This document shows, one piece after another, positions 4,111-19,419 of a stretch of DNA of 21,037 nucleotides. Both the position numbers and the translations under genes were made by a program. Every line of letters starts with the position of its first letter. The first letter of the stretch is position 1. This DNA is from a virus: the IMG/VR virus record IMGVR_UViG_3300046009_010245, positions 1 through 21,037 of that record; one strand, given 5' to 3'. The notes beneath the pieces were generated by a model. The model ran no database searches. It was given only the letters and a program-made list of their open reading frames with translations, and was not told the DNA's origin.

Positions 4111-4676
4111 AAATCAAATATGTCTTTTTTTACTTTTCTTTTTCTTTTTATAGGCTTCTTTGGTGAACACATCTCATCAAATCGTTCCATGTCGGAATCC
4201 GTCAACCCAAAAAAGTCTTTTCTTCCTATGTCGATACCTGAATAGATTTCGTTGAACCAGTTCTGAAAGTCTTTATTGTTCTGTTGCTCTGCAAATTTAA
4301 ATTGTGTGTACTTTTCTTTTTTTTCCTTGTTTATTATACGTACAAAAGAAAACCAGCATATTTGGGTTAGGTACCCAAATGGGCTGGTTGACTTCTTTGG
4401 GTCAAAGTTGTCGATGTATGTTATGCAGTTTAATACTGCGTCTGACACCATTTCTTCTCTGTATGGATAATTTGCAAAGTTTGGTCTATAGGAAAGTCTG
4501 GTTGCTATTTTTAGAATGCATTCACCGAGATAGTCGGTTAATTTTGGTTTTTTTCTTCCAGAGTTTTCCGCTTCTTTGCACTTTTTTTTGTATTCAACCA
4601 AAGCATCATAGAGTGCTTGATTGTCTACATAATCAGCATCTGTAGATTTTAATTTTTTTCTCTTTGGTTTTTTCAC
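4107..4676 (-). CDS. 55: Late-transcription sigma factor gp55
   Basis: This minimal sigma70-family factor directs host RNA polymerase to TATAAATA late promoters. Its 189 residues match T4 gp55 (185). The central segment (MVSDAVLNCITYIDNFDPKKSTSPFGYLTQICWFSFVRIINKEKKE, about residues 80-125) is the sigma region 2-like part of the family. The C-terminus ends KKDIFDL, a hydrophobic/acidic motif like the T4 gp55 clamp-binding tail, which docks on gp45. The only usable start is GTG (4676-4674), because a TAG lies four codons upstream in frame and no ATG intervenes. No Shine-Dalgarno sequence is obvious. The gene follows the glycan island by 37 bases with no visible terminator, so island transcripts may run into it. 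Confidence 0.93.
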   Translation of the reverse strand: MKKPKRKKLKSTDADYVDNQALYDALVEYKKKCKEAENSGRKKPKLTDYLGECILKIATRLSYRPNFANYPYREEMVSDAVLNCITYIDNFDPKKSTSPFGYLTQICWFSFVRIINKEKKEKYTQFKFAEQQNNKDFQNWFNEIYSGIDIGRKDFFGLTDSDMERFDEMCSPKKPIKRKRKVKKDIFDL

Positions 4677-4713
4677 AATATAATACTAACACATAATCAT
4701 CTAAAAACAAAGA

Positions 4714-7326
4714 TTAATTTAAATAATCGGAAAACTCCATTTCACATACTTTATATTCAATAGAATTATTTTTTTCCAATTCTTTTATATTCAAAAAAAC
4801 AACATCTTTTTCTAAAAAATTTTTATTGTTTTCTTTGATATAATCAAAGAAATTCCACGCAAGAACAATTAAAACTTTTGGCAAATTATCCAAAGCATAA
4901 TTTTTATTTTTTATCGGAATATTAACTCCTGGAATAAACTTACCATGTTTCATTATATTATCATCGATAGTATAATTAATGTGAGTATTATTGATTCCAA
5001 AATAATTCAATGATGTTGTTGCTTTAGCAGGAGATCCATAAGCAGCAATTTTTCCATATTTGTTTTTTAAATATTTTATATTTTTGTTAACAATAATTTT
5101 TATTGCATTTATGTCATTGGCAAATTTTTCATATATGGAAAAATTAGTGATTCCAAAATCTTTTTCTTCTTGTATAAACTTTTCAACACTGGGATCTATA
5201 TTGCAACCCTGTCTAGAAATATAAACGCGAATTGATCCTCCATGTGTATCAATGTGTTCTACTTTATACACACAAAGATTTAAACGATTAAAAAAGTTAT
5301 TCAAAGAAGTAACACTCCAATAATTGTAGTGTTCATGATAAATATTGTCAAAAGTTAAATCTTTAATAGTATCTTTTAAATATTGAACTTCAATTACAAA
5401 AGAACCTTTGTCATTTAATAAATCAAAAACATTGTTGGCAATATCTTTTAATTCATCGGAGTGTGCAAATACGTTAGATGCGGTTACCAATGCAGCTTTT
5501 CCATATTGATTCAATATTTTATCTACGGTTTCTTTCTTAAAATATTCATTTATTGTAGGTATGTTATTTTTGTTTGCCAACTCTGCAATATTTTTTGCTG
5601 GTTCAACGCCAACAACTGGTATTTGTTTTTCTTTTAATGGTTTTATTGCTATTCCGTCATTGCTGCCAATATCCACAACAAGTGTCGATGGTCCTAAATT
5701 AAATTCTGAAATATATTTTTCTGCAGCTTCTTCAAAATGTTTTCTAAATTTTGCAGTGGTAGAAGAAACATACAGATAATTGTCAAACATTTTGCTTGCA
5801 GGAACTGAAACCGACAATTGGCAATTGTGACATTTTGGACAGTAATTCATTTCCAATGGATACATGTCAACATCTTCTTCCAAGGTATTTTTTAAATTAT
5901 TTGCAAGAGGTGAATTGCCCAATGAAATTACTCTTTCAAGATACTTATTGTCGCATGCTCTGCATGTTGTTTTGTAACTTTCAAGTAAAAGATTTTTAGT
6001 CTTTTCGTTTACTAGTTCATATGGAAGTGTGTGGCTGATCCCGTAATTTTCGTGTTCTCTTTCTCCTCTTACCAAATTTAAAAATATAGAATCTTCGGTA
6101 AATACCATTGCATGTGCAACGTTGGGTTTAATTATGGCAACATCACCTTCATTTATTACTCTTGTTTCTATAGGTGAGTTTGGGACAGACAAATCTTTAA
6201 TTACGCTTATGTATTGACCTTTAATCAAAAGACATTTTTGTTCCTGTATTGGATGGTAATGATTTGCCCTTACCGTACCTTTTTTGGATTCTATGTATCC
6301 TATTAGGTTGATGGGTTCTGTCAATTCATAGTTTAATATTTTTCCACGATAGTCTTTGTATTCTTTACCACCACGATCAATATATTCCAAATCTTGTTTT
6401 ATTTTTTTCTCAGACCAATTATGAATCATCTCTTTTAAACAATCTTTAAGATTGTATCTAAATTCAAATCCGGTTTCCAACAATTTTTTATTTGATATCG
6501 TATAACCCAAATTTGGAATTTCATCTTGAGTTTCTATTACATTCACATCCGGATTGATTTCTTTGCAAAGTTCTGCTACTTTTTTTACTGTTATATTTTC
6601 CTTTGAAAGATGGAATGTTTCTTTGTTTATGTCCTTTCTTTCTGCCATGTATTTTATACATCTTGCCACATCAAATAGTGGTACCAAACTTTTTACTTGC
6701 ACTCCTCCGGAATATAATTTTATTGTTCCATTTTGTGCTGTTATTTTTGCAAACAAATTTGGCATTATACTCATTCTTGTGCTGTCTGTAGAATAGCCAT
6801 AAACAGAACCAAGACGAAGAATAACATAATTTTTGTCAGAATTTTTTAAATCATTTTCTGATTGAACTTTTACAGTTGAATAAGTGAGTACTGGTGTCGG
6901 GGGTTCTGATTCATCAATTCCCAATTTTGTTTTATCAAAACCCTCATATACAACATGTGTTGATGGAAAAATTATTTTGCAATCTTTTTTTACATTGTTT
7001 ATTATATTTTTAGTTCCATCAATACCGGTGCTTCTTATTAACTCGTCTTGCTCTTTGTTTTCCTGCGTCTTTACATAAGCAACGTCAGTTATTCCAGCAA
7101 GATGAATAACCACATCAGCATCTTGAATATGATGCTTTAAATCATTTTCATCAAGAATAGAACATTGAACATAATCGATACCCCAATCTCTAAGTTGTTT
7201 GACTCGTTCAGATAAAAATTTTTTATCTAAAACTACGATATTTTTAAATCTGGCTTCGCCAGAATATAGTTTGCAGAGTTCACTCCCAATGTATCCAAGA
7301 CCACCTGTAATAACAATTTTTTCCAT
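4714..7326 (-). CDS. Triple-domain sugar enzyme: SDR epimerase/reductase + cupin + zinc-binding C-methyltransferase
   Basis: One ORF fuses three modules; residue numbers count from an in-frame ATG at 7350. Residues 9-310 are an NAD(P)-dependent extended SDR with GGLGYIG (16-22), PSTHVVYE (129-136) and catalytic YSTVK (157-161), acting on a nucleotide sugar. Residues 335-445 form a cupin-like domain with HYHPIQEQ (364-371), as in dTDP-sugar isomerases. Residues 460-878 are a C-methyltransferase: zinc ligands CRAC (463-466) and CPKC (504-507), SAM loop VVDIGSNDG (558-566), and a C-terminal domain with AAYGSPAKATT (769-779). Together they suggest formation of a branched or C-methylated deoxysugar. 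The preferred start is the second ATG (7326), giving MEKIVITGGLGYIG; the first ATG (7350) belongs to a duplicated initiation region. Substrates are not known. Confidence 0.85.
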   Translation of the reverse strand: MEKIVITGGLGYIGSELCKLYSGEARFKNIVVLDKKFLSERVKQLRDWGIDYVQCSILDENDLKHHIQDADVVIHLAGITDVAYVKTQENKEQDELIRSTGIDGTKNIINNVKKDCKIIFPSTHVVYEGFDKTKLGIDESEPPTPVLTYSTVKVQSENDLKNSDKNYVILRLGSVYGYSTDSTRMSIMPNLFAKITAQNGTIKLYSGGVQVKSLVPLFDVARCIKYMAERKDINKETFHLSKENITVKKVAELCKEINPDVNVIETQDEIPNLGYTISNKKLLETGFEFRYNLKDCLKEMIHNWSEKKIKQDLEYIDRGGKEYKDYRGKILNYELTEPINLIGYIESKKGTVRANHYHPIQEQKCLLIKGQYISVIKDLSVPNSPIETRVINEGDVAIIKPNVAHAMVFTEDSIFLNLVRGEREHENYGISHTLPYELVNEKTKNLLLESYKTTCRACDNKYLERVISLGNSPLANNLKNTLEEDVDMYPLEMNYCPKCHNCQLSVSVPASKMFDNYLYVSSTTAKFRKHFEEAAEKYISEFNLGPSTLVVDIGSNDGIAIKPLKEKQIPVVGVEPAKNIAELANKNNIPTINEYFKKETVDKILNQYGKAALVTASNVFAHSDELKDIANNVFDLLNDKGSFVIEVQYLKDTIKDLTFDNIYHEHYNYWSVTSLNNFFNRLNLCVYKVEHIDTHGGSIRVYISRQGCNIDPSVEKFIQEEKDFGITNFSIYEKFANDINAIKIIVNKNIKYLKNKYGKIAAYGSPAKATTSLNYFGINNTHINYTIDDNIMKHGKFIPGVNIPIKNKNYALDNLPKVLIVLAWNFFDYIKENNKNFLEKDVVFLNIKELEKNNSIEYKVCEMEFSDYLN

Positions 7327-7363
7327 TTGTATTCTTTCTAATTTTTCCATCTGTATTCTTTCT
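7316..7363 (-). repeat. 24-bp tandem duplication of a ribosome-binding/start region
   Basis: Two adjacent 24-bp copies (7340-7363 and 7316-7339) match at 22 of 24 positions. Each carries AGAAAGAATACA, a purine-rich ribosome-binding stretch, followed by ATGGAAAAA or ATGGAAAAAA. The duplication is in frame (24 = 8 codons), so either ATG can open the same ORF. The downstream copy puts the ATG at the expected family N-terminus. Confidence 0.85.
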
Positions 7364-7396
7364 AAAACAATATACTATAAAGTTTTTACAAATCAA

Positions 7397-7945
7397 TTAT
7401 AATTCAAAAATCCAGCAAGATCCAGATTTTTTTACACCTGGTAACAATTCGTTGATTGCTCTATCTACTGGGCCATAATTGCAGTCATGGCCAGCCAAAA
7501 TTCCACCTGGTGCTATTTTTGGTAACCAATGTTGTATGTCTTCTTTTATAAATTCATATTCGTGGGAAGCGTCAATAAACACAAATTGCAAACTTTTTTC
7601 TTTATATAGTTTTGATGCTTCTACCGAAGTATTTTTTATAGGAATTATTATACTTGAAAGTGGTTTAATATTTTCTAAAAATACTTCATATAATTTATCT
7701 TCTTTTACTGCGGGGTCATTCATGTGAGATTCCACTTCTGGTGATCCCTTCCATGTATCTACACAATCAAATTTAATATTTTTTTGAGAATTATAAATTT
7801 CAACACCCATATAAACTGCGCTTCTTCCTTTCCAAGAACCAACCTCAACAAAATGAGAACCGTTTGGGTATTTTAATACAATTGAACTGTATAAATCTCC
7901 ATAATCAAACCAATTTTCTCCAATATTTTGATAATAATGTTCCAT
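7397..7945 (-). CDS. Class I SAM-dependent methyltransferase (Methyltransf_24-like)
   Basis: This 182-residue soluble methyltransferase is probably for sugar or glycan O-methylation. The SAM-binding loop FVEVGSWKGRSA is at 32-43, the acidic strand FIDASHEYE at 123-131, and GGILAGHD at 147-154 ends the core. This pattern belongs to the small Methyltransf_24/macrocin-O-methyltransferase-like group often found in polysaccharide clusters. Its ATG shares one base with the stop of the upstream epimerase (TAATG), a tight coupling. The downstream gap to the fusion gene is 46 bases. The acceptor cannot be read from sequence. Confidence 0.82.
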   Translation of the reverse strand: MEHYYQNIGENWFDYGDLYSSIVLKYPNGSHFVEVGSWKGRSAVYMGVEIYNSQKNIKFDCVDTWKGSPEVESHMNDPAVKEDKLYEVFLENIKPLSSIIIPIKNTSVEASKLYKEKSLQFVFIDASHEYEFIKEDIQHWLPKIAPGGILAGHDCNYGPVDRAINELLPGVKKSGSCWIFEL

Positions 7946-8910
7946 TATTTTAGTCCTTTAATCCAATTATATGTTTTTTCAAGACCATAAGTTAATGGCT
8001 TAGTGGGGTGCCAATTTAACTTTAGTCTCATCAAGTTGTTATCAGAATTTCTTCCACGAACTCCTTGTGGGCCAGAAATATTTTTGATTGTTAATTTTTT
8101 ATTTGCAATTTGCATAACTATTTCTGCCAACTTATTTATCGATACCATTTCTTCTGAACCAATATTAAGTGGCCCGTTGAAGTCCGATTCCATGAATCTT
8201 CTTACCGCTTCAACGCATTCATCAATATAAAGGAAAGATCTTGTTTGCTGACCATCTCCCCATATTTCCATGGTTTCGTCTTCAGAGAATGCAACCTTTC
8301 TGCATATTGCTGCGGGTGCTTTTTCTTTTCCATTGTTCCAAGAGCCATATGGACCAAAGATATTATGAAATCTTCCAATTCTAACAGGAAGACCATAATT
8401 TCTGTTGTATGCTAGATATAAACGCTCGCTGAATAACTTTTCCCATCCATACTCGCTGTCTGGTGCAGCTGGATATGCAGACTCCTCGGAACACTTTGGG
8501 TTGTTTGGATCTAGCTGGTTATATTCCGGATAAATGCAAGCAGAAGACGAGTAGAAAATTTTTGGCATCTTTGTATATCTTACTGCTTCATTTGCGATGT
8601 TCAGATTGATCTGCGCTGAGTTATGCATAACATCCGCATCATGATTTCCAGTAAAGATATATCCTGCTCCACCCATATCTGCGGCCAATTGATAGATCTC
8701 ATCAAAGGTTTGACCTTCATCTATTCTCATTGAATTTTTTACTTGAGCAGGGTCCCGAAGATCAACAACATAAAATTGATCTGCATCCGATTGTTTGTAT
8801 TCGTGGATTTTTATGTCTGCTGCACGAACAAAATAACCTTCATTTTTAAGACGAGTAACTAGATGACCCCCAATAAATCCACCACCACCACACACTAATG
8901 CTGTTTTCAT
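7945..8910 (-). CDS. GDP-mannose 3,5-epimerase-like SDR
   Basis: This enzyme probably converts GDP-D-mannose to GDP-L-galactose or GDP-L-gulose. It has an N-terminal GGGGFIG NAD loop (8-14), SACIYPE (123-129), YGWEK (154-158), RFHNIFGPYG, KEKAPAA (195-201), GDGQQTRSF and GVRGRNSDNN, a series I recognise from plant GDP-mannose 3,5-epimerase. The catalytic residues known in the Arabidopsis enzyme (C145, Y174, K178, K217) correspond to C125, Y154, K158 and K197 here, all with the same offset of 20, so the active site looks intact. The length of 321 is slightly shorter than plant GME, lacking only an N-terminal extension. Local GC is visibly higher than in flanking genes. Some bacterial relatives may use other sugars; this family subtype is likely but unproven. 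Confidence 0.87.
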   Translation of the reverse strand: MKTALVCGGGGFIGGHLVTRLKNEGYFVRAADIKIHEYKQSDADQFYVVDLRDPAQVKNSMRIDEGQTFDEIYQLAADMGGAGYIFTGNHDADVMHNSAQINLNIANEAVRYTKMPKIFYSSSACIYPEYNQLDPNNPKCSEESAYPAAPDSEYGWEKLFSERLYLAYNRNYGLPVRIGRFHNIFGPYGSWNNGKEKAPAAICRKVAFSEDETMEIWGDGQQTRSFLYIDECVEAVRRFMESDFNGPLNIGSEEMVSINKLAEIVMQIANKKLTIKNISGPQGVRGRNSDNNLMRLKLNWHPTKPLTYGLEKTYNWIKGLK

Positions 8911-8911
8911 T

Positions 8912-9685
8912 TTAATCCTTTATATATTTTTTAAACTTGTCCATATTATTTAACACATATTTTGGAAGATAAGACAAATCAGCAATACATTTTAATTTTA
9001 TGTAATTTCTATTAAGAGGATCTATCAAATGCTCTAAACGATTTTCAACAGCATTTAATGATTCGTCTTTCCAGTCATCATGAGCATAATTTTGAAGTTT
9101 ATTTAAAACGTGATTTTTATTTCCTAAAAAAGAAAAGTGCCAACCACCATTTTCAATACCATGAAATTGATGTTTATTGTGTCTAGTAATTTGAGTATTT
9201 GATAAAAATGTATTTTTTCTAAGCATACACGAACTTTGGCTCAAGGTGGAGCCACGATCTTCGGCCTGAGTATTTAAATAATAATAATGCAATATTTGAT
9301 TAAACAATACTGGAAATTTATTTTCTTTTAAAGCTATTTTAACAGCATCAGAGGATGGAATTTCATCTAAATCGGATATAATTATCAAATCATCGTCTGT
9401 TGCATTTTCCAAGCCATAAGTAATGTGATTTCTCTGCATTACATCATTGTACATTGGATCATTTGGTCTAAATTTATCCGCATCAACAATTACATGAATT
9501 ATTTTAGGTAAAAATTTTTCATATTTATGAATATTTTTTTGAAATAGCATTTCTTTTGGTTTGTTTTGATGTGTTCTTTCTCCCTCTACAATTACAAAAT
9601 AATCAACAACATCATTTAATTCATTTAATCTGATTTCCAATAAATCAACTTCATTATAAAACATGAAACAATCATAAATTTTCAT
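8912..9685 (-). CDS. Glycosyltransferase family 17-like
   Basis: This 257-residue protein is like GT17 enzymes, whose founding member is the eukaryotic beta-1,4-GlcNAc transferase MGAT3; bacterial and viral members act on unknown glycans. The N-terminus KIYDCFMFYNEVDLLEIRL with VDYFVIVEGERTHQNKPK is the family hallmark, and a DLDE metal-binding motif (105-108, in ISDLDEIPS) follows. No membrane segment or signal peptide is present. The start overlaps the upstream methyltransferase stop by four bases, and the stop lies one base before the epimerase ATG. Donor and acceptor are unknown. Confidence 0.85.
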   Translation of the reverse strand: MKIYDCFMFYNEVDLLEIRLNELNDVVDYFVIVEGERTHQNKPKEMLFQKNIHKYEKFLPKIIHVIVDADKFRPNDPMYNDVMQRNHITYGLENATDDDLIIISDLDEIPSSDAVKIALKENKFPVLFNQILHYYYLNTQAEDRGSTLSQSSCMLRKNTFLSNTQITRHNKHQFHGIENGGWHFSFLGNKNHVLNKLQNYAHDDWKDESLNAVENRLEHLIDPLNRNYIKLKCIADLSYLPKYVLNNMDKFKKYIKD

Positions 9686-10269
9686 TTGTTAATTCTTTCT
9701 AAAATAGTCAAGCCATTATTGTTTGTTCTTTTTTCTATTAATTTCCAATTTTTATTTTCTTTTAAAAATTCTTCTATGGCTGGCCAAAGACCTTGGATTT
9801 CAGAATTTGTAATTTTACCTGTGTCATAGTTATTTTCATCGACAATTCCATACAATTCTGTATCATGAAAAATTAAAAATTTATTAACTTTTGTGTGATG
9901 TCTATTAAGTTCACTTTTCAATTGTTGATATGTATGCATGGTATCGATAAACAAAAGATCTGTTTCATCTATATCAATAGTTCTAGTATCACCTAATACA
10001 AATTTATAATTAATATTATTTTTTTTTGAATACTCCACAATTTCATTAAATTCTTTTTCACGACCCCAATGACTTGGGTGCTTTAAATCTACGCAAACCA
10101 TTTTTTTTGGGTTTGAAAAAATTAAAGCAACTGTTGAAACTACTCCCCTAACTCCAAATTCAGTAATTGATGTACATTTTTTCCCATATTCAAATAATAT
10201 AGATAAATGTTCATTTATATCAGAAGGCGTGTTGATTAAATCGTTTAAAGTATTATTTAATGTTTTCAT
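9682..10269 (-). CDS. Class I SAM-dependent methyltransferase (CmcI/Methyltransf_24-like)
   Basis: This is a 195-residue soluble protein with a SAM-loop-like TEFGVRGVVS (36-45), an acidic LLFIDTMHTYQQ (105-116) and LIFHDTELYG further on. This is the layout of the cephalosporin-hydroxylase/CmcI-type and Methyltransf_24 proteins found in glycan clusters. It is distinct from the methyltransferase at 7397-7945; the two share only core motifs, so this does not look like a recent duplication. It overlaps the downstream GT17-like gene by four bases and lies 36 bases after the GT-A-like gene. A putative sugar O-methyltransferase role is inference. Confidence 0.75.
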   Translation of the reverse strand: MKTLNNTLNDLINTPSDINEHLSILFEYGKKCTSITEFGVRGVVSTVALIFSNPKKMVCVDLKHPSHWGREKEFNEIVEYSKKNNINYKFVLGDTRTIDIDETDLLFIDTMHTYQQLKSELNRHHTKVNKFLIFHDTELYGIVDENNYDTGKITNSEIQGLWPAIEEFLKENKNWKLIEKRTNNNGLTILERINK

Positions 10270-10305
10270 ATTTAATTATCCAAGTTTAAATAAAAAATTT
10301 GTTTT

Positions 10306-11004
10306 TTAATTTTTAAAGTCATTTAATATTTTTTCCCAATCTAATCCCGGACTTAAAAAATTTTCATGCACGTGTGTACTTACACCGGGAATCGGGGTAA
10401 ATAGTCTAATATTTTTTGTGTACAATTCTCTAAAAAAATTTCTATCATTTGCAAGATGTTTTTTTGCATATGGTAAAATTTCTTTTAACATTTTTTTAGT
10501 ACACATAAAAGTGGCAGTAGTACTTTCCGCTGTTCTCCAATGAGTATTGTTTTTAAAAAATATGCTTTCCATACCAAACGAAATATCATCATCTCTAGTG
10601 TATCTATCTAAATGATCATATCCACTTATTAATTCAAATGTTTTAACACCATCCAACATAATATTTAAAGCATTTGAAGTATGTACATAATCATCTTCTA
10701 AAAAATAGATGTAATCCGAAGAAGAAAAATTTTCTGCATAATCAAATTTAAAAAAAACAGATTTTATTACGGAATTAAAATTGTTAAAAATTACTTTATA
10801 ATTTAATTCCTCGGCTTTATTCGATAAAATATTTTTATGATCTGAATCCATTAAAACTATTAATTCTACTGGATAATTGCAGGACTGTATTGTTTTTTGC
10901 AAATTAAAAAAACAATCCATTTTATTGAACCATTTTGGTCTTCCCGGTCTGGAATTTATTCCATTTAATTCTGCATTGCACGCTGAGTAAAGTATAGTAA
11001 GCAT
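10306..11004 (-). CDS. Putative GT-A-fold glycosyltransferase
   Basis: This is a 232-residue protein with an N-terminal LTILYSACN strand, ELIVLMDSDHKN (about 47-58) and a YIYFLEDDYVHT segment (98-109) in which EDD (103-105) is a plausible DxD-type metal and nucleotide-sugar site. The layout resembles GT-A (GT2-like) enzymes but I cannot place it in a numbered family. The C-terminal VSTHVHENFL may supply a metal-ligand His. No membrane segment is present. Sampled DNA within this gene is among the most AT-rich in the window (22% GC over 10441-10500). Substrate unknown. Confidence 0.7.
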   Translation of the reverse strand: MLTILYSACNAELNGINSRPGRPKWFNKMDCFFNLQKTIQSCNYPVELIVLMDSDHKNILSNKAEELNYKVIFNNFNSVIKSVFFKFDYAENFSSSDYIYFLEDDYVHTSNALNIMLDGVKTFELISGYDHLDRYTRDDDISFGMESIFFKNNTHWRTAESTTATFMCTKKMLKEILPYAKKHLANDRNFFRELYTKNIRLFTPIPGVSTHVHENFLSPGLDWEKILNDFKN

Positions 11005-11025
11005 AAAAATAATTTTTTATAGGTG

Positions 11026-12018
11026 TTATTTTATTTTCCAAAAATCATATATACCTTTTTCAAGTTCATATGAAGACCACAATTTTCTTTCTTGCATTGG
11101 TTGATTTTTTGCCCAATCCCACATTTTTGTAAGACCTAATTTTAAATTTGTTGGATTTTTAAAATTTAAAATTGTTTTAATTTTATCATGTGATACCCAA
11201 GCATCTTTTACTTCATGTCTCTTTTCCAAATAAACTTTCTCCCCGCCACCCATCACTTCAATTAAAATATTGCATGCTTTATTTATTGAACAGTGTTCGT
11301 CACCTCCAATATTAAAAATTTGTTTTGAGGCTTTTGGATCTATAGCACCCTTCCAAAAATACGGAACACAATCATCAACATAACTAAAGGCTCTGGTTTG
11401 GGTTCCGTCTCCGTATATAGACATAGGCATACCATTCATGTGTTGATACATCCAAATACCCAACACGTTTCTGTATTTGTCCCAGATATTTTGTTTTACT
11501 CCATAGACATTATGTGGTCTAAAGATGCACCAATCCATTCCATGTTGCTCCCCGGCTATTTGTATATCCATTTCACATGCATACTTCGCAACACCATATG
11601 GATCAATTGGGTTTTGTTGGTATGCTTCAACGAATGGTGGTTTGTTGACACCATATACTGCCATCGTTGAAGTAAAAACAAATCTTTTTACTTCATGTTT
11701 AATCGATTGGTTTATGAGCCTAGTTGTGGCAATTAAGTTGTTTTCGTAATTAAATTGACGAATAAAGGGGCTTAAACCTTCGGCAGCATATGCTGCAAAA
11801 TGAAAAACATACTCCGGTTTGTGTTTTTCAAACACATCAGCCAAATAATCTGATGAAGCAAGATTTAGTTTGTAGAATTCAACTTTGCTGTTTATATTAT
11901 CAGAATATCCACCACTTAAATCATCAATTCCAATTATATTGCACTTTACGTTTTCTGAAAGCCAATCTGCCAAACGTGAACCCAACAAACCCGCCACACC
12001 AGTTATTAAAATATTCAT
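11026..12018 (-). CDS. NAD-dependent nucleotide-sugar epimerase/dehydratase (GalE-like SDR)
   Basis: This extended SDR has the NAD-binding loop GVAGLLG (7-13), FTSTMAVYG with Ser117/Thr118, and the catalytic YGVAK (Tyr141, Lys145). The motifs RPHNVYG, YGDGTQTRAFSYVDD and FNIGG match UDP-glucose 4-epimerase-type enzymes. The 330-residue length fits. It likely interconverts a UDP-sugar for the island's transferases, though a dehydratase is possible. It is a different lineage from the GDP-mannose-epimerase-like SDR at 7945-8910 and from the SDR module of the fusion protein. Seven bases separate it from the upstream DUF5672 gene, and its leader carries ACTGTGAGAT, also found before the first island gene. 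Confidence 0.85.
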   Translation of the reverse strand: MNILITGVAGLLGSRLADWLSENVKCNIIGIDDLSGGYSDNINSKVEFYKLNLASSDYLADVFEKHKPEYVFHFAAYAAEGLSPFIRQFNYENNLIATTRLINQSIKHEVKRFVFTSTMAVYGVNKPPFVEAYQQNPIDPYGVAKYACEMDIQIAGEQHGMDWCIFRPHNVYGVKQNIWDKYRNVLGIWMYQHMNGMPMSIYGDGTQTRAFSYVDDCVPYFWKGAIDPKASKQIFNIGGDEHCSINKACNILIEVMGGGEKVYLEKRHEVKDAWVSHDKIKTILNFKNPTNLKLGLTKMWDWAKNQPMQERKLWSSYELEKGIYDFWKIK

Positions 12019-12022
12019 ATTA

Positions 12023-12032
12023 ATCTCACAGT
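12023..12032 (-). repeat. Shared 10-bp leader motif ACTGTGAGAT (copy 2, before GalE-like ORF)
   Basis: The same ten bases (minus strand) occur at 16693-16702 before the GT25-like gene. Here the motif ends four bases before the ATG, spanning the DUF5672 stop codon. It acts as a moderate ribosome-binding sequence (GTGAGAT) or may be a repeat left by recombination. Confidence 0.4.
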
Positions 12033-12727
12033 TCTATATTATTTAGACGCATTACTTCAAGCATATGAGTATCTTTTCCATGAAATCCAAATGTTTCATT
12101 TGGATTTGTGTATACTTCATTTACAAACAAACTTTCGCATGAAAATGTTTTAGCCAAATCAAATGAAGCAAATTTATGATTTTTTTCTTCTAATTGTTTT
12201 CTAAAACCAATGCATATTAAAACATCTTCTGGTATGCCAGAATAATCTAAGTTCATAAGAGATGAAACATCTGTCATCAATTTTTTGCTTCTCATGCAAA
12301 AACCACCATTTCCAATATGGAAAGTATTATTTGATTCTATCAACTTTTCGTGAACAAAAGGCCATCTTTGTGTATTAAAAAACAAATGTTTTTTTGGCCA
12401 TGGTGCTCCAATGTAATCATATTGTTGATAATCTGGATTCCATTTATCTGAATGGGTTATAAAACCATCGTCTTGAACAATTATAACAAATTCAGTATCT
12501 ATGTGTTTTACCAAATCAACCAAGCAAAATTTATTGTATCCATCATAGGTTAATTTTGGTATTTCAACATGAGAATAAAAATCAGACTTTCCAAAATTTG
12601 TGTTGCAAAAAAATTTAACATCACCAAATTTAATCCCATTGCAACTATATTTTAGTGCTTTGAGGTGATTTGAATCTTTTCCAACACCATCTATACTTAC
12701 CAAGGTTGTATTTATTAAATTTATCAT
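12026..12727 (-). CDS. DUF5672-family protein (probable glycosyltransferase)
   Basis: This 233-residue protein matches my recollection of DUF5672, a family found in glycan clusters. The region VIIVQDDGFITHSDKWNP (81-98) carries an acidic DDG motif like the metal site of GT-A enzymes, and DYIGAPW (104-110) follows, as does GNGGFCMRSKKL, a typical glycosyltransferase acceptor-side strand. The C-terminus FGFHGKD is also typical. A function is not experimentally assigned as far as I know. Its start overlaps the DUF6165 stop by four bases. I infer a glycosyltransferase, donor unknown. Confidence 0.75.
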   Translation of the reverse strand: MINLINTTLVSIDGVGKDSNHLKALKYSCNGIKFGDVKFFCNTNFGKSDFYSHVEIPKLTYDGYNKFCLVDLVKHIDTEFVIIVQDDGFITHSDKWNPDYQQYDYIGAPWPKKHLFFNTQRWPFVHEKLIESNNTFHIGNGGFCMRSKKLMTDVSSLMNLDYSGIPEDVLICIGFRKQLEEKNHKFASFDLAKTFSCESLFVNEVYTNPNETFGFHGKDTHMLEVMRLNNIEL

Positions 12728-13098
12728 TCTATGTTTGGAAGAATTTTTTCTTCCGTTATTTGGCTGTTTGATAATACATTGATTTTTTTCTTAATCAAGA
12801 ATCTTTTATCGTTAGTAATGTATACGGATCTAGCTAACTCTACAAATTCTTTATCAAATTGTTTTTTTTCTTCTAATATTCTTATTTTATCTTCAATTTC
12901 CCAAAGAGTTTCATTAATTTGTTGCAAAGTTTCAAGTAATTTTTGATCAATATTCAAAGTCTCAACTGCTTCTTTTAAAACTGAATATTCATTTAACAGA
13001 TTTGTATGTTTTTCTGTATGAGTGCTACACTTCTTCAACTTTATGTTTACTATTGTATATTTGTCTACAATTTCTCCATTTGATACTTCTATTTTCAT
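12724..13098 (-). CDS. DUF6165-family small protein
   Basis: This is a 124-residue, helix-rich protein beginning KIEVSNGEIVDKYTIVNIKLKK, the recognisable N-terminus of DUF6165. The middle (about 25-95) is heptad-like and Glu/Lys-rich, probably a coiled coil (ETLQQINETLWEIEDKIRILEEKKQ). No catalytic motif is visible. The family commonly occurs beside glycosyltransferases in my experience, and here it lies one base from a GT9-like gene and overlaps DUF5672 by four bases. It could be a subunit or scaffold for the neighbouring transferases, which is inference. Function unknown. Confidence 0.72.
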   Translation of the reverse strand: MKIEVSNGEIVDKYTIVNIKLKKCSTHTEKHTNLLNEYSVLKEAVETLNIDQKLLETLQQINETLWEIEDKIRILEEKKQFDKEFVELARSVYITNDKRFLIKKKINVLSNSQITEEKILPNIE

Positions 13099-13099
13099 T

Positions 13100-13837
13100 T
13101 TAGATCATGTAAGTCCAATTTACGTTTCTATAGACCATGTTGGTCAGGTTGTAATATGTTGGACTTTCATTCTCCCTTCTTTTTTCATACATGAAAATAT
13201 TATCTGTTTTGCTGTATTTGTCAACCAAATAACACAGAGATGTTTCTACCGTATGTATTTCAGTTGCTTTTTCAATAACACCAATCCAGTCAAAAAGATT
13301 GAACTGATGTTCTTTGTCTTTTTCAAATGACATTTCTATAACCTGATTGTCTGTATGTATTTTTGGAGTTGAACAAACGACATGATTTGGTGGAGTTCCA
13401 TATGTCATATTGAAAAGTGTAAATGGTTTTTTAAGATTTATATTATACTCATCAATCAACTTTTGCTCACGCTCTTCACTTCTTGTGAGACTAAAACTTT
13501 TGTGCCAATTGGTTAATGGTGTATTTGTGTAATAATACTTGCTGGCCATTATAGAACAATTTTTTAAATAATAGTTTGAAAACGAAACCGGAACGTAAAG
13601 ATCCATTTCTGTATTTACTCCCATGTGGGATCCATACAGTTCTTTCATTGGAAACTCTTCCGATTCACGGTGCCAAACTAAATTTGGTTTTTGTAATTGA
13701 GTTGCAAGCATTTCATAATAAAGGTCTATGACTGGCACATGAACTCTGTAGCCACTCTCAATATACCGATCTATTATTGGTTGAATCCAAATTATGTCAC
13801 CCAATCCACATGGCTGATATATCAAACAATTTTTCAT
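13100..13837 (-). CDS. GT9-like (heptosyltransferase-type) glycosyltransferase
   Basis: This 245-residue protein has the N-terminal IYQPCGLGDIIWIQPII segment, the GLGD loop (11-14) of ADP-heptose:LPS heptosyltransferase-type (GT9) GT-B enzymes. The C-terminal half contains IGVIEKATEIHTVETSLCYLVDK, comparable to the GT9 donor-site helix with its Thr/Ser-Glu pair. It is shorter than standard heptosyltransferases (about 320-350), so one Rossmann half may be reduced. It overlaps the GT10-like gene by four bases. A transferase role is probable, but heptose as donor should not be assumed. Confidence 0.7.
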   Translation of the reverse strand: MKNCLIYQPCGLGDIIWIQPIIDRYIESGYRVHVPVIDLYYEMLATQLQKPNLVWHRESEEFPMKELYGSHMGVNTEMDLYVPVSFSNYYLKNCSIMASKYYYTNTPLTNWHKSFSLTRSEEREQKLIDEYNINLKKPFTLFNMTYGTPPNHVVCSTPKIHTDNQVIEMSFEKDKEHQFNLFDWIGVIEKATEIHTVETSLCYLVDKYSKTDNIFMYEKRRENESPTYYNLTNMVYRNVNWTYMI

Positions 13838-14661
13838 AAGAGTTCCACTATTCTATCGTACAAATAATCATCAGAAGTCTGATGATTCATACATCTTTCA
13901 AAGTTGTCCTTGATGGCATCCATCTTGCTGTAATAAAGATCTTCATTTAAATTATTTATGTCGAACTTGTCATCTAGAAGTATGATTCCATCCATGTTGA
14001 ACATTTTCACAACTTCCGGAGTTCCGTAGTAGATTGGAATGGTTCCGCAGGCAAAGCAATCCATAAGTTTTTCTGTGTAATAGTTTGAATAGCGTTCATT
14101 CTCTATGGTAATTGAGAAACAGTAATCACGCAATACATCTTCTTTTTTCTCAAATGAATTGAATGATCTTCCGTAATAATCTATTGGGAATCCAGTGTTT
14201 TTGAACTGAATCATCGTGTTGTTTCTAAAATGATGTCCATTACACATGGTCTTGCCAGAAGAAACCATTGAAACTAGTTTTGTTTTTGGATGTATTCCCC
14301 GGTCAACAACCCAAGTTGAATTTGCCGCAGGAGGACAATAAGAAAAAATGGGTGATATTTCTAACAACTCATGATCGTGTACAAATATTTTTTTATATAC
14401 TGATTGCATTTTTGAAGCGTTTGTCTTCAAAAAATGCATCTGGTGTGGAATGATTCCTTTTGACTCACATATCCACAAAAATTTATTTGGACAATTGCTT
14501 TTAATTCCACCAAATATATCATAATCAAGATAGACTTCTATGCCATCTATTGATTTTTTATCAAAAATCCATTTAAATTTTGAAGGAGGAACATTATGGC
14601 ATGAAGTTACATCATGTTTAAACGGACTTCCATACGCTGATAATTCTTTTGGCTTGATCAT
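13834..14661 (-). CDS. GT10-family (alpha-1,3/4-fucosyltransferase-like) glycosyltransferase
   Basis: This 275-residue protein carries the GT10 hallmark in its C-terminal half: FSITIENERYSNYYTEKLMD followed by CFACGTIPIYYG (about 182-213), the GDP-fucose-binding segment of this family. No transmembrane anchor is present, as in bacterial GT10 enzymes. GT10 members transfer L-fucose, or related L-sugars, from GDP donors. The island's GDP-mannose 3,5-epimerase-like enzyme could supply GDP-L-galactose as an alternative donor. GC is somewhat higher than in its neighbours (38% over 13981-14040). Start and stop overlap the adjacent genes by four bases each. Confidence 0.83.
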   Translation of the reverse strand: MIKPKELSAYGSPFKHDVTSCHNVPPSKFKWIFDKKSIDGIEVYLDYDIFGGIKSNCPNKFLWICESKGIIPHQMHFLKTNASKMQSVYKKIFVHDHELLEISPIFSYCPPAANSTWVVDRGIHPKTKLVSMVSSGKTMCNGHHFRNNTMIQFKNTGFPIDYYGRSFNSFEKKEDVLRDYCFSITIENERYSNYYTEKLMDCFACGTIPIYYGTPEVVKMFNMDGIILLDDKFDINNLNEDLYYSKMDAIKDNFERCMNHQTSDDYLYDRIVELL

Positions 14662-15266
14662 TTCTTTTTATAAAAAGCATCACCCCAAGTTTGTCCATCC
14701 CAACTTGTTACAATTCTTTCAAAACCAAACTGTTTCAAGAACTCATCGATTTGCTCAACCATTGGGCAATCCTTATACAACTCTGCTCTGTTTACTTCGC
14801 AAAGAAGGTATTGAACTTTTTCAAGTGTCTTTTTTGCACCTTTCAATACTTCCAATTCATATCCCTGAACATCAAGTGTAATTAAATTATAATTAAAATC
14901 ATTATTATTAAAATATTCATCTAAAGTAGTAACATTTACTGTTTCTGATGATTCAAATTTAATTGATGGATATTGTAATAAATGTAAAGCAGGCATTAAT
15001 AAAGAACTTGATTGTCCTCCGTTTGAATGCTCTACAAACATGGTTGCTGTTTTTTTTTCAGAACCTAAAGCTATATTTTCTATTTTTACACCTTTTGTTG
15101 GACCCAATTTTATTAATAATTTTTCATATATTTGTTTTTGTGGTTCAAACATTAAAATATTTGTAGACAATTTACTTAAAAAATCATATTCATTTCCTAA
15201 GTGCGCACCGACTTGTATTATACCATTAATTTTAGAATCTATGTATGGATTTATGTCAAATAGCAT
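14658..15266 (-). CDS. FkbM-family methyltransferase
   Basis: This class I SAM methyltransferase of the FkbM family typically O-methylates sugars or polyketide hydroxyls. Numbering from an in-frame ATG at 15281, SAM loop IIQVGAHLGNE is at 21-31, EPQ at 46-48, and the family hallmark LITLDVQGYELEVLKGA is at 133-149. I prefer the second ATG (15266), which shares one base with the upstream fucosyltransferase stop (TAATG). The more upstream ATG overlaps that gene by 16 bases. DNA composition breaks sharply inside the gene near 14880 (35% GC over 14821-14880, 12% over 14881-14940). It overlaps the GT10-like gene by four bases. Acceptor unknown. Confidence 0.84.
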   Translation of the reverse strand: MLFDINPYIDSKINGIIQVGAHLGNEYDFLSKLSTNILMFEPQKQIYEKLLIKLGPTKGVKIENIALGSEKKTATMFVEHSNGGQSSSLLMPALHLLQYPSIKFESSETVNVTTLDEYFNNNDFNYNLITLDVQGYELEVLKGAKKTLEKVQYLLCEVNRAELYKDCPMVEQIDEFLKQFGFERIVTSWDGQTWGDAFYKKK

Positions 15267-16054
15267 TATATTATTTTCCAATCTTCACAATAAATATCAG
15301 ACCAATTTTTTGGCATGTCTGGAGAATTTCCAAACCATTCTGACGGAGCAATTACTTTTTTAGAGTTGCTTAACCATGCTCCCCACCAACTAAAACTGCT
15401 GTTGGCAATTACATGATATTCACATAGAGACATAGTACACATGTCAACAAACTGATTTTCACTTTCTGTTATAAAATATTTTTTGTTTAATGAATCAAAT
15501 ACATCTTTTGCTAAAGCGGGCTCATCACTGAAAGCAATAATTAACATGTCTTCTGGAAGTTCTTTTAAAGCTTCTTTGTAATATTTAATTGAACAAATTG
15601 GATGCTTGCTTACTAAATTTTTGTAATCTCCAAGTCGCAAATGAACACTTATAACTGGTTCTTTTGTTATTGATCGAATATCTGTTGCCTTAAACTTTAT
15701 TTCTTGATTAAAATCAAATTCATTCAATAGATCAGATCTATAATCTTTAAAATATTTTTCACTTTGAAAATAACCAGTTATATCCGTATTATCCAGTACA
15801 CCAAATATTCCAGCATTGTATGTAAATTCTCTTTCCTGTGCTCTATGCCTTGAAACTAAATTTGTGCTGTCTTTTGCGGAAAGATTTGAAAAACATTCAT
15901 TTAAACAAAAGTTGTGATATGGGTTTTCTGATTTTTTTTGCATAGGTACGCCAAATTCATATCCTCTTGTTTTTGCAATTGCATACAAGGTAGCGTATTG
16001 AAACATTTGGTTTCCCATTCTTCCATATGTTCCCATCAAATTAAAAGTGATCAT
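15266..16054 (-). CDS. GT11 alpha-1,2-fucosyltransferase-like protein
   Basis: This 262-residue GT11 enzyme has GRMGNQMFQYA (11-21), the family N-terminus, HLRLGDY (138-144), the HxRxGD-type GDP-binding motif, and ANSSFSWWGAWLS (217-229), the classic alpha-1,2-fucosyltransferase C-terminal motif. These enzymes transfer L-fucose from GDP-fucose to terminal galactose. No GDP-fucose synthesis genes (GMD, fucose synthase) are in the window, so the donor would come from the host or another locus, or be GDP-L-galactose made by the island's epimerase. The start overlaps the GT25-like stop by four bases. The protein is soluble, with no anchor. Confidence 0.88.
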   Translation of the reverse strand: MITFNLMGTYGRMGNQMFQYATLYAIAKTRGYEFGVPMQKKSENPYHNFCLNECFSNLSAKDSTNLVSRHRAQEREFTYNAGIFGVLDNTDITGYFQSEKYFKDYRSDLLNEFDFNQEIKFKATDIRSITKEPVISVHLRLGDYKNLVSKHPICSIKYYKEALKELPEDMLIIAFSDEPALAKDVFDSLNKKYFITESENQFVDMCTMSLCEYHVIANSSFSWWGAWLSNSKKVIAPSEWFGNSPDMPKNWSDIYCEDWKII

Positions 16055-16686
16055 GGAAAAATAAAATTTCTGTTTTCTAACGGTGAGTCAGTTAATGATT
16101 GCCATTTATTTGCATTTTCTCTATCGTTTGACTGATATATTAATGGCTGTATAGTACAATACACTTTTTGTTGAAACTGTATAGAAGATGTTCCTATGTC
16201 CCATGGAACACCCATAGTATACAAACAATGTCTTCCAACGTCTGCCATGTGTTTTCTGTATGATGGTGTTACATACAAAATAGCATGAGCAGCAAGTATC
16301 CCCCCAATTCTATAGTAATTATCATTAATTTTTTGTGTTACGTAATTTCTATTTCCATGAGAAATGCCCAAATATACTCCATCAGAATCTTCTGGAATGT
16401 CTAATATTGGATTAAAATTGTCAACAAATTCTACGTCATCTTCCAATATTAAAAGGGGTGTAGAATATTCCGTATTTTCCAAAATATCAATGTGAGATTG
16501 ACCACATCCCATAAAATGGTAAATTGATTTTTCTGTATTTGGTGGTGGCTCTATCACCAATCCTGATTTTTTGTGTGTATTTTTAAATCCGTGTTTTTTT
16601 AATCTTTCTTCCATTGTCTCTGCATTTTTTGTTGCGGAGTCAAGATTAATCCAAACAACCGGTATTTCCCTAAGATCTATAATCAT
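16051..16686 (-). CDS. GT25-like glycosyltransferase (first gene of the island)
   Basis: This 211-residue protein resembles GT25 enzymes (LPS biosynthesis galactosyltransferase type). It has an N-terminal VVWINLDSATK with MEERLK, GCGQSHIDIL (60-69), which is the GC-x-x-SH signature, and LLILEDDVEFVDN (78-90) with the EDD metal motif. The C-terminus is shorter than in many members. It is the promoter-proximal gene of the island, with a leader of roughly 11 bases after a predicted start near 16697 and a weak ribosome-binding sequence (GAGAT). GT25 members include both lipooligosaccharide and collagen hydroxylysine galactosyltransferases, so a protein acceptor is possible. Confidence 0.8.
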   Translation of the reverse strand: MIIDLREIPVVWINLDSATKNAETMEERLKKHGFKNTHKKSGLVIEPPPNTEKSIYHFMGCGQSHIDILENTEYSTPLLILEDDVEFVDNFNPILDIPEDSDGVYLGISHGNRNYVTQKINDNYYRIGGILAAHAILYVTPSYRKHMADVGRHCLYTMGVPWDIGTSSIQFQQKVYCTIQPLIYQSNDRENANKWQSLTDSPLENRNFIFP

Positions 16687-16692
16687 TATTTT

Positions 16693-16702
16693 ATCTCACA
16701 GT
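16693..16702 (-). repeat. Shared 10-bp leader motif ACTGTGAGAT (copy 1, before GT25-like ORF)
   Basis: The copy lies just after the -10 of the island promoter and ends six bases before the GT25-like ATG. It is identical to the copy at 12023-12032. As a pair they may mark a common ribosome-binding module or recombination seam. Confidence 0.4.
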
Positions 16703-16703
16703 C

Positions 16704-16731
16704 ATTATAGTTTATTTAAAATAAATGTCAA
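16704..16731 (-). promoter_or_regulatory. Consensus sigma70 promoter driving the glycan island
   Basis: The minus strand carries TTGACA (16731-16726), a 16-base spacer and TATAAT (16709-16704). Both hexamers are perfect consensus, rare by chance, and the predicted start near 16697 is just upstream of the first island ATG at 16686. I infer early transcription by host RNA polymerase. Confidence 0.82.
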
Positions 16732-16746
16732 ATATATTTATTTGAC
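16727..16746. repeat. Inverted repeat holding divergent -35 elements
   Basis: GTCAAATA (16727-16734) and TATTTGAC (16739-16746) form an 8-bp perfect palindrome around a 4-base centre. The left half supplies the -35 of the island promoter and the right half a TTGACT -35 facing uvsY. It may be a shared regulator site or a coincidence of two -35 boxes placed back to back. Confidence 0.6.
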
Positions 16747-16771
16747 TTTATCTAAAGATACTCTAAAGTAC
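16742..16771 (+). promoter_or_regulatory. Candidate uvsY promoter with two 11-bp phased repeats
   Basis: TTGACT (16742-16747) could be a -35, but the best -10 at 16-bp spacing, TAAAGT (16764-16769), matches only four of six positions. Two near-identical elements, TCTAAAGATAC (16751-16761) and TCTAAAGTAC (16762-16771), start 11 bases apart, one helical turn, as expected for an activator site. The promoter is therefore probably weak or factor-dependent. Confidence 0.35.
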
Positions 16772-16781
16772 ATCTTAAAAG

Positions 16782-17219
16782 ATGAATCTAGAGAACCTTA
16801 AAGAACTTATTACTAAAGACTCTCAAATAGACTCTACAGAGTTAGGTATAGAGTCTCTTAAGATACCTCAAATACACTCCAAGTATTTAACAATACTTGC
16901 AGATGTCAAATTACTTTTGACAAAACACCAAAATGACTTGGCAGTATTAAAACTTCGTAAGTGGAAAATTTATACCGGCAAGGCGTCTAGGGAGGAACTT
17001 GAAAGTTGGGGAGAGGAACCCTCAGAATTAACACTGCTAAAAAGCGATGTTGAGCAATTTGTGGAAGCGGATCCAAAAGTCATAGAACTTAAAGCTAGGC
17101 TATCCGTAACCGAAATAAAATTAAAAATGGTAGAGGAATTTATTAGATCCCTTAACAATAGAAATTTTATGATAAAATCTGCCATTGAATGGCAAAAAAT
17201 GATGAATGGCATAGTATAA
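16782..17219 (+). CDS. uvsY: Recombination mediator UvsY
   Basis: UvsY helps the UvsX recombinase displace single-stranded DNA-binding protein (gp32) and assemble on ssDNA. The 145-residue length fits T4 UvsY (137), and the N-terminus MNLENLKELITKDSQIDSTEL parallels T4's MRLEDLQEELKKDVFIDSTKL. The middle KLRKWKIYTGKASREEL is the basic DNA-binding-like region, and the C-terminal IRSLNNRNFMIKSAIEWQKMMNG matches the hexamer-forming helices of the family. It is divergent from the glycan island, with 95 bases between the start codons, and no strong Shine-Dalgarno sequence is seen. Its stop codon lies inside the late promoter of uvsW, so the two genes can be read at different times. Confidence 0.92.
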   Translation: MNLENLKELITKDSQIDSTELGIESLKIPQIHSKYLTILADVKLLLTKHQNDLAVLKLRKWKIYTGKASREELESWGEEPSELTLLKSDVEQFVEADPKVIELKARLSVTEIKLKMVEEFIRSLNNRNFMIKSAIEWQKMMNGIV

Positions 17220-17222
17220 ATA
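17215..17222 (+). promoter_or_regulatory. Late promoter box TATAAATA for uvsW
   Basis: This exact TATAAATA overlaps the uvsY stop (17217-17219) and ends four bases before the uvsW GTG (17227). T4 uvsW is also a late gene, which supports use of this box. Transcripts would start at about the GTG, implying a leaderless or near-leaderless mRNA. Confidence 0.75.
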
Positions 17223-17226
17223 TTAT

Positions 17227-18735
17227 GTGGATATTGAAGTTGAATCTATTGATGAAGTTCGTTACTACATCAAAACAGAACAAGCACTCAAGAAAGAACT
17301 AAGGGATTATTTTTCCTTTATGGTTCCCGGTGCTCAATATATGCCTATGTTCAAGCGTAGGCTTTGGGATGGTAAAATTCGTCTTTACGACATTTTATCA
17401 TCTACTTTGCCGAGGGGATTGAAATCATATCTTCAAAAATTCTGTGAAGACAGAAAATACTCCTTAAATATTAAAGAAAGCAAAAACCCTTTATGCATTA
17501 CGAAGGAAAAACTTTCGGAGTTTTACAAATCTTTGAAGGTTACAGTTCGCAAAAAAGACGTCCAGATGCACGACCATCAGGAACAGGCTATTTTGCATGC
17601 ATTGAACAATCATCGTTCGGTGGTGATTTCTCCCACAGGATCTGGAAAAAGTCTCATTATATACGTATTGGTTCGATTTCTTCAAACGGTACTTCCTACA
17701 GACCGCAAGATTCTTATTCTGGTTCCTACGGTTGGCTTGGTCAACCAGATGGAATCGGATTTTTTTGATTATTCCGGGCAGGACAAGTCGTGGTCTTGCA
17801 AAAAATACATTCACAAGATATCTGCTGGACAAGACAAGGACACTAAAAAGCAGATTGTTATATCCACGTGGCAGTCAATTTACAAGTTGCCAAAGGAATG
17901 GTTTTCTGACTTTGACGCCATATTCTTTGATGAGTGTCATCAAGCGAAGGCAGAGTCAATAAACTTCATAGGACAGAAGCTCCACAAGGCTTGGTTTAGA
18001 ATCGGGACTACAGGAACCCTCCAGCAGACACAGGCCCACAGACTGAGCATAGAAGGAATTCTAGGGCCTGCTGTGCAGTTTATACAAACCAAAAACCTAA
18101 TGACAAAGGGATTGCTTGCAAAGCTAGACATAGATTGCATAATTCTTAAATATAAGGAAGAGGACAAGCAACTGCTGAAAAAGCAGAAGTATGCCGACGA
18201 GATAAAGTGGATCGTAAGCAATGACGAACGAAACAAATTCATCAAAGACCTCGCATTGCGGACAAAGGGAAACACCCTCATACTCTTCAACTATGTCGAA
18301 CTGCATGGACGACCCCTCACGGCTATCATCGAAGCAGAAGCAGGTGATAGAAAAGTATATTTCATCTCTGGAAAGACAGAAGCAGAAACAAGAGAATACA
18401 TACGAAAGGTCGTTGACAAGGAAACGGATGCAATACTGGTGGCAAGTTTTGGCACTACCAGTGCTGGCATTAACATTGTCAATCTTGACAATATTATATT
18501 TGCGTCACCTACTAAATCCGTGATTCGGCTGCTCCAGAGCATTGGTCGTGGATTGCGCGTTTCTGCAAGAAAAAAATCGCTGAAAGTATATGACGTGGTA
18601 GATGACCTTACTATGAAATCGCACAAGAACCACGTCTTCAAGCACTTTGAAGAACGCCTGAAGATATACAAGCGTGAAAAGTTTGATCACAAAATACATT
18701 CAATGATGTTCGGGCAAAGCTCAAAAGATAAATAG
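17227..18735 (+). CDS. uvsW: UvsW superfamily 2 helicase
   Basis: UvsW unwinds R-loops and branch-migrates recombination and fork intermediates, shutting off origin replication and promoting recombination-dependent replication late in infection. Walker A SPTGSGKS (about 135-142), Walker B DECH (235-238), GTTGTL, and motif VI QSIGRGLR (437-444) are all present. The length is 502 (T4 502). The start is GTG: it yields MDIEVESID, matching the T4 N-terminus MDIKV, whereas an ATG two bases upstream is out of frame. No Shine-Dalgarno sequence precedes it. The protein looks intact. It is followed by 15 bases and a strong ribosome-binding site for the next ORF. Confidence 0.96.
   Translation: MDIEVESIDEVRYYIKTEQALKKELRDYFSFMVPGAQYMPMFKRRLWDGKIRLYDILSSTLPRGLKSYLQKFCEDRKYSLNIKESKNPLCITKEKLSEFYKSLKVTVRKKDVQMHDHQEQAILHALNNHRSVVISPTGSGKSLIIYVLVRFLQTVLPTDRKILILVPTVGLVNQMESDFFDYSGQDKSWSCKKYIHKISAGQDKDTKKQIVISTWQSIYKLPKEWFSDFDAIFFDECHQAKAESINFIGQKLHKAWFRIGTTGTLQQTQAHRLSIEGILGPAVQFIQTKNLMTKGLLAKLDIDCIILKYKEEDKQLLKKQKYADEIKWIVSNDERNKFIKDLALRTKGNTLILFNYVELHGRPLTAIIEAEAGDRKVYFISGKTEAETREYIRKVVDKETDAILVASFGTTSAGINIVNLDNIIFASPTKSVIRLLQSIGRGLRVSARKKSLKVYDVVDDLTMKSHKNHVFKHFEERLKIYKREKFDHKIHSMMFGQSSKDK
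18727..18734 (+). promoter_or_regulatory. Late-promoter-like box GATAAATA
   Basis: This octamer matches seven of eight positions of the TATAAATA late box and overlaps the uvsW stop (TAG, 18733-18735), the same arrangement as the boxes at 1343 and 17215. It may be a weaker late promoter for the following ORF. Confidence 0.4.
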
Positions 18736-18741
18736 TAAGGA

Positions 18742-18749
18742 AGGGAGGA
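18742..18749 (+). promoter_or_regulatory. Strong Shine-Dalgarno sequence deciding the start of the Sm-like ORF
   Basis: AGGGAGGA is the best ribosome-binding site in the window. Its spacing (seven bases) points to the ATG at 18757 and not to the one at 18751. It contrasts with the Shine-Dalgarno-less starts of the late-box genes. Confidence 0.7.
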
Positions 18750-18756
18750 CATGCTT

Positions 18757-19419
18757 ATGTCCGATTCACTTCCTGAGAACAGCTTCTCGGGTGTATTAAG
18801 AGTTGTTAAACTCACCTCTGGAGAAGAACTCATTGGCTTTGTCAATGAAGCCACCCAAGAAAAAATAAACATAAAATTGCCAGCAAGACTGGACAATTAT
18901 CTATCACGGGATGAAACAGGCCAGATGATAGAATACGTAAAACTTTCCAATTATCTTCTCAACCTAAAGGCACATGAGGTTTCTTTGCCAAAGACCGTAA
19001 TTGTCTACATAGGTGAACCTGCAATAGAATTGGAAAAGATGTATGAAATGTTTTTCCTTGCAATGCAGAAAGATCCAAAGTCAATAACAGGCAATATTCC
19101 AGGAAGTCCCGAAGGACCCGAAAACGGTCTTCAACTTCTAAATGATTTGTTCAACAATGACGAATTTGTAAATTTTGTAAATAACTTAATTGATAGTTTT
19201 GAGGGTGTTGAGATAATGATGGACGAGGAAGAGGAAGGCGAACTTTTTGCCCAGGATGACATTACAGAGGATCTTGAGCCAAAAGAGTCTCCGAAGCCAT
19301 CCAAGAAGAAGAAACGCAGCTCAATGAAGCCTGAGAAGTCTTCCTTGCCATATAAACCAGAGTCTGACCCCGCAAAACCAGAAAGCTGGCCAGACGACCC
19401 CAGCGAATATCTGAATTAA
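18757..19419 (+). CDS. Conserved hypothetical with Sm-like N-terminal domain
   Basis: This is a 220-residue protein. The N-terminus FSGVLRVVKLTSGEELIGFVNEATQEKINIKLPAR has the strand-loop pattern of Sm/LSm proteins ('V-x-L-x-x-G-x-x-x-x-G'), which suggests RNA or DNA binding, but I know no assigned function. The middle is acidic (MMDEEEEGELF...DDITEDLEPKE). The tail is Lys/Pro/Ser-rich (SKKKKRSS...KPEKSS...) and probably disordered. I prefer the ATG at 18757, because the strong Shine-Dalgarno AGGGAGGA (18742-18749) lies seven bases before it but only one base before an ATG at 18751. Similar ORFs follow uvsW in marine T4-like phages in my recollection. The 3' end overlaps the tail gene on the opposite strand by four bases. 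Confidence 0.75.
   Translation: MSDSLPENSFSGVLRVVKLTSGEELIGFVNEATQEKINIKLPARLDNYLSRDETGQMIEYVKLSNYLLNLKAHEVSLPKTVIVYIGEPAIELEKMYEMFFLAMQKDPKSITGNIPGSPEGPENGLQLLNDLFNNDEFVNFVNNLIDSFEGVEIMMDEEEEGELFAQDDITEDLEPKESPKPSKKKKRSSMKPEKSSLPYKPESDPAKPESWPDDPSEYLN

Follow-up and report, generated by a model that had tools for sequence, protein, structure and literature searches.

What controls the expression of a large glycan-gene island in an uncultured T4-like phage, and at which stages of infection would the island be active? The window, by which we mean the whole 21,037-nt stretch analysed, is an IMG/VR record representing a 21-kb fragment of such a phage. Its minus strand carries, in the order of transcription, gp23, a tail-tube family protein, the island, gp55, gp47-like and gp46-like genes, gp45 and gp44. 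The gp23 gene is incomplete and extends past the window edge, and the tail-tube family protein occupies the gp3 position. Both gp45 and gp44 were recognised by position and sequence; the gp45-like ORF (179-850) is a candidate sliding clamp by these two marks only, not by family search. The plus strand holds uvsY, uvsW and a 'methylamine utilization' family gene. For uvsY the nearest cultured phages share only 33-39% identity, for gp23 about 53%. The genes that frame the locus are the following.

4107..4676, minus strand: gp55 late sigma factor, the right-hand island border in transcription order (phrog_234, E 1e-51)
4714..16686, minus strand: glycan island of glycosyltransferases, sugar epimerases/dehydratases and methyltransferases
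16051..16686, minus strand: first island gene, a GT25-like glycosyltransferase (Pfam PF01755 at 19.5 bits, below the cut-off of 24)
16782..17219, plus strand: uvsY (PF11056, E 2e-26)
17227..18735, plus strand: uvsW helicase (PF21241 and helicase domains)
18751..19419, plus strand: 'methylamine utilization' family gene, third in the inverted uvsY-uvsW block (phrog_471)

Family searches identify GT25-like, GT11, GT10 and GT17 glycosyltransferases in the island, and its first gene also matches phrog_24091 and, weakly, the phrog_2835 glucosyltransferase. In a single 878-aa ORF at 4714-7350, a middle region of some 120 aa links an NAD-dependent epimerase domain to a Methyltransf_13/14-type C-methyltransferase. 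WhiB, considered as a sign of an actinobacterial host, gave no match and was rejected. In the cultured Kyanoviridae P-SSM2, Sf-FS3, DSL-LC02, HTVC008M and Mosig, and also in S-PM2, gp23-gp3-uvsY-uvsW-gp55-gp47 lie on one strand with no island there. Compared with this order, the uvsY-uvsW-methylamine-family block of the window (16782-19419) is inverted relative to gp23 and gp55, while its internal order is the same as in the cultured relatives. The cultured arrangement therefore indicates that the block has been inverted in this clade, with the island at its inner border, beside a divergent element.

That element lies in a gap of 95 bp (16687-16781), the length given in the earlier note, which separates the first island gene (ATG at 16686) from uvsY (ATG at 16782). 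The minus-strand sequence here, GTCAAATAAATATATTTGACATTTATTTTAAATAAACTATAATGACTGTGAGATAAAATAATG, has as its last bases the ATG with which the first island gene begins. We distinguish the following features in it.

16704..16709, minus strand: -10 hexamer TATAAT of the island promoter
16726..16731, minus strand: -35 hexamer TTGACA of the island promoter, spacer 16
16697, minus strand: predicted early transcription start, 7 nt past the -10 by standard sigma70 geometry, with a 5' leader of about 11 nt
16735..16741, minus strand: predicted late promoter box ATAAATA ([AC]TAAATA in relatives; TAAATA invariant in 54/54 unique sequences)
16729, minus strand: predicted late transcription start, placed by T4 late geometry with the box at -12..-6; leader of about 43 nt
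16742..16769, plus strand: putative divergent uvsY promoter TTGACT-N16-TAAAGT, recognised by sequence, TTGAC invariant in relatives

The earlier note had reported a consensus promoter, TTGACA-16-TATAAT, facing the island, and it is present exactly as described. The window contains no other 12/12 sigma70 match besides this one (16731-16704), and Markov-1 resampling gives 0.04 such matches expected per window on both strands; the probability of one falling in the gap 16687-16781 on the minus strand is about 1.5e-4. The first island gene has its ATG 17 nt past the end of the -10, instead of the roughly 18 given before. The -35 hexamer is TTGACA and not the GTTTAC of strict T4 early promoters; early promoters of RB49, RB43 and Aeh1 likewise favour G at -33 (PMC1524935).

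To examine conservation, 80 relatives were taken by uvsY protein homology only, not by promoter sequence. Those with enough flank make up, together with the window, 77 loci with 54 unique sequences; the conserved copies are related by descent, so that these are not 54 independent tests, and gene starts in the relatives come from a simple ORF caller. All 77 uvsY-anchored loci of this uncultured T4-like clade carry GTCAA-[AC]TAAATA-N2/3-TTGAC[A/T]-N16-TATA[A/T]T between uvsY and the oppositely directed gene. GTCAA, TAAATA and TTGAC are found in 100% of the unique sequences, the spacer is 16 in 53 of the 54, and the -10 is either TATAAT (36) or TATATT (18). The boxes are near-invariant while spacer and flanks drift, with mean major-base frequencies of 0.93 for the -35, 0.95 for the -10 and 0.64 for the spacer. 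Scanning 2.9 million viral contigs by pattern only returned at least 106 further loci, on contigs shared in part with the uvsY-anchored set; among the matches listed, uvsY is the divergent neighbour in 106/106. Relatives G001 (64402/64734) and G002 (18398/18729) have another divergent gap in which a late box overlaps a sigma70 promoter; it precedes a gene of 199 aa without a family match.

Weaker promoter-like sites in the window number 98 against 82 expected, as might suit a chance consensus match in AT-rich DNA. Such a match is so improbable as to be negligible: only 0.04 full matches are expected, and a promoter kept in the same place at 77/77 loci selected by uvsY homology stands above chance and already refutes this explanation. 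The same conservation backs a sigma70-type promoter pointing into the island.

On the same strand, 3 nt upstream of the island -35, lies the sequence ATAAATA. Among the 7-mers enriched upstream of called genes, ATAAATA and CTAAATA rank first and third in G001 (137 kb) and are the two most enriched in G002 (126 kb). [AC]TAAATA precedes the gp23, scaffold, tail sheath, neck and head-closure genes in relatives, and uvsW and the third gene of its block also have late boxes. CTAAATA is the late box of Aeh1 (PMC1524935; PMC2988020), and that of S-PM2 is NATAAATA (PMC2984593). Judged from sequence, [AC]TAAATA is the late (gp55-type) promoter box of the clade. It resembles the T4-type gp55 late promoter (TATAAATA; CTAAATA in Aeh1) in the box itself, in its occurrence before virion genes and in the presence of gp55 (phrog_234) adjoining the island, along with the gp45-like ORF known by position and sequence only; it differs in that a sigma70 promoter directly follows the box. 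Conservation thus bears out the late boxes that had been noticed at virion-side genes. The division drawn in the earlier note between an early island and late virion genes is not supported, since the late-type box upstream of the island -35 is kept in every relative examined; of the contents of the gap, that note had seen the sigma70 site and overlooked the TAAATA box and the divergent uvsY promoter.

The position of TAAATA just upstream of the -35 could speak against a dual function, the hexamer being an AT-rich, UP-like element of a promoter at which the sigma70 site alone matters and expression is early only. The sigma70 hexamers are indeed conserved as strongly as the TAAATA box, and an A-rich stretch at -40 to -44 is often present in T4-like early promoters (PMC1524935). 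We nevertheless consider an early-only promoter unlikely: an UP-like element would tolerate AT substitutions, whereas TAAATA shows no change at all, and the position preceding it is A or C only, the same choice as in the late boxes of the clade. In T4 late promoters the box occupies -13 to -6 (PMC1524935). With the box at 16741-16735, late transcripts would start near 16729, within the -35 of the early promoter, so that the two promoters of the island would overlap and should exclude each other. In T4 genes e and soc a hairpin in the late leader hides the ribosome site. An RNA hairpin masking the ribosome site in the late leader was rejected here (z = -0.43).

The GTCAA beside the late box reads TTGAC on the plus strand, which is the -35 of the putative uvsY promoter. 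In relatives a -10-like hexamer follows on the uvsY side after 15-18 nt, mostly 16, with a match of 4.8/6 compared to 3.6/6 in shuffles, and in several of them the uvsY promoter is TTGACT-16-TATAAT. The plus-strand TTGAC and the better-than-shuffled -10 suggest that uvsY has its own divergent promoter. The same bases could be read as an inverted-repeat operator, GTCAA-N9/10-TTGAC, at which a dimeric regulator controls both directions. In the window the arms GTCAAAT and ATTTGAC form a perfect 7-bp inverted repeat, and the GTCAA...TTGAC motif has exactly one copy in each of four large relatives; one site per genome is compatible with a dedicated regulator, whereas a genome-wide regulon of the motif was rejected on this count. 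An operator is nonetheless quite improbable: the spacing of the arms is not constant but shifts by one base, the middle lacks symmetry, and divergent promoters account for both arms, each serving as a -35 whose -10 lies 16 nt away.

We conclude that the gap is probably a bidirectional element, in which overlapping early sigma70 and late gp55 promoters would drive the island and a sigma70 promoter would drive uvsY, with glycan cassettes exchanged behind it. The use of each promoter, its timing, the start sites and the cassette-swapping recombination are what we infer from sequence. Host RNA polymerase would transcribe the island from about 16697 in the early phase of infection. When gp55 has been produced and replication is under way, gp55-polymerase, together with the sliding clamp, would initiate at about 16729 and the island would stay on late; its expression thus probably begins early and continues late. 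On the plus strand, the sigma70 promoter in the same short interval would drive uvsY, and recombination in the promoter or leader would place glycan cassettes behind the fixed element.

Overlapping early and late promoters have been reported in RB49, S-PM2 and Syn9, phages without MotA; as a point against the dual reading, S-PM2 genes at such promoters did not show T4-like middle kinetics by Q-PCR (PMC2984593). As in these phages, a sigma70-type early and a gp55-type late promoter overlap before one gene, the late box (16741-16735) and the -35 (16731-16726) sharing one upstream region. The genes concerned in those phages are homologues of T4 middle genes (PMC2984593), whereas the pair described here heads an exchangeable glycan island and is accompanied by a divergent uvsY promoter. 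MotA and AsiA found no match in four large relatives, on contigs that are possibly incomplete and with a control set that contained no positive genome.

The first genes behind the promoter belong to three families without BLAST similarity to one another: GT25-like at 54 loci (the window and one truncated copy among them), PF04488 at 17 and a phrog_14945 glycosyltransferase at 4. Identical 42-43-nt promoters precede members of different families, and one 42-mer stands before all three. The occurrence of unrelated glycosyltransferase families behind promoters that are sometimes identical over 42 nt points to an exchange of cassettes behind a fixed promoter. The island measures 6.4-15.2 kb from the element to gp55 by contig coordinates, in the 21 contigs that include both, and among five phages compared the island genes are largely unrelated and gp55 is 85-90% identical. 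Variable content between conserved uvsY and gp55 makes this a hyperplastic region of the T4-like kind. The cyanophage g15-g18 hyperplastic region and the pelagimyophage host-recognition cluster similarly hold variable genes, including glycosyltransferases, between core genes (PMC2984593, PMC7029224), but the present one is located between uvsY and gp55, beside an inverted uvsY-uvsW block, and has a near-invariant promoter at its mouth. Glycan genes are also carried by P-SSM2, whose LPS-type clusters have been suggested to change the host surface (PMC2984593); that phage, unlike this clade, lacks an island between uvsY and gp55.

A further proposal, for and against which we find the case evenly balanced, is that the divergent early/late element acts as a fixed expression dock: cassettes would recombine in at the start codon or in the leader, in many cases inside the promoter itself, and inherit early and late expression at once. 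The new part is the fixed docking position, overlapping early and late promoters being already known. If true, the dock would be the phage equivalent of expression sites whose cassettes can be exchanged. The bidirectional element would show a way for a phage to swap host-interaction genes without rebuilding their regulation, and it predicts that the surface-glycan genes of an uncultured but widely sampled T4-like clade act early and late, not early only. Early action would be of advantage in changing the host surface or blocking rivals, and by late action virions could be decorated; the island may serve either of these ends, host-surface change or virion decoration, or the two together.

Several minor observations concern transcript starts and ends. 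Upstream of gp55, 67 unique relatives display TTGA/TTGT/TTGC-16-TATAAT-like hexamers whose end is exactly 6 nt away from the GTG start, and a Shine-Dalgarno sequence is found in only 4 of these 67; the early mRNA of this late sigma factor is predicted to be leaderless. The window has a degenerate version with the same geometry, TTGTTT-16-TAGTAT-6-GTG (4677-4715). Read-through as the sole source of gp55 in the window was rejected, its own promoter-like region being weak rather than absent. Distances from late box to gene start are two-peaked in relatives G001-G004, at 5 nt and at 16-28 nt. The short class includes 31 genes at 5 nt and 43 at 5-6 nt, with a Shine-Dalgarno sequence in 1 of 46 at 4-6 nt; at 12-45 nt it is present in 39 of 58. 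At a distance of 5 nt, T4 late geometry has transcription begin at the A of the ATG itself, so that about half of the late genes look leaderless. Two short-distance cases lie in the window: 4 nt separate ATAAATA from the GTG of uvsW (17227), and 5 nt separate the box from the ATG of the tail-tube gene (19946). Distances below 12 nt number none in a 50-kb T4 stretch and one in S-PM2. Between gp23 and the tail-tube gene, a perfect 12-bp stem flanked by A and T runs (19968-19995) is likely a two-way terminator.
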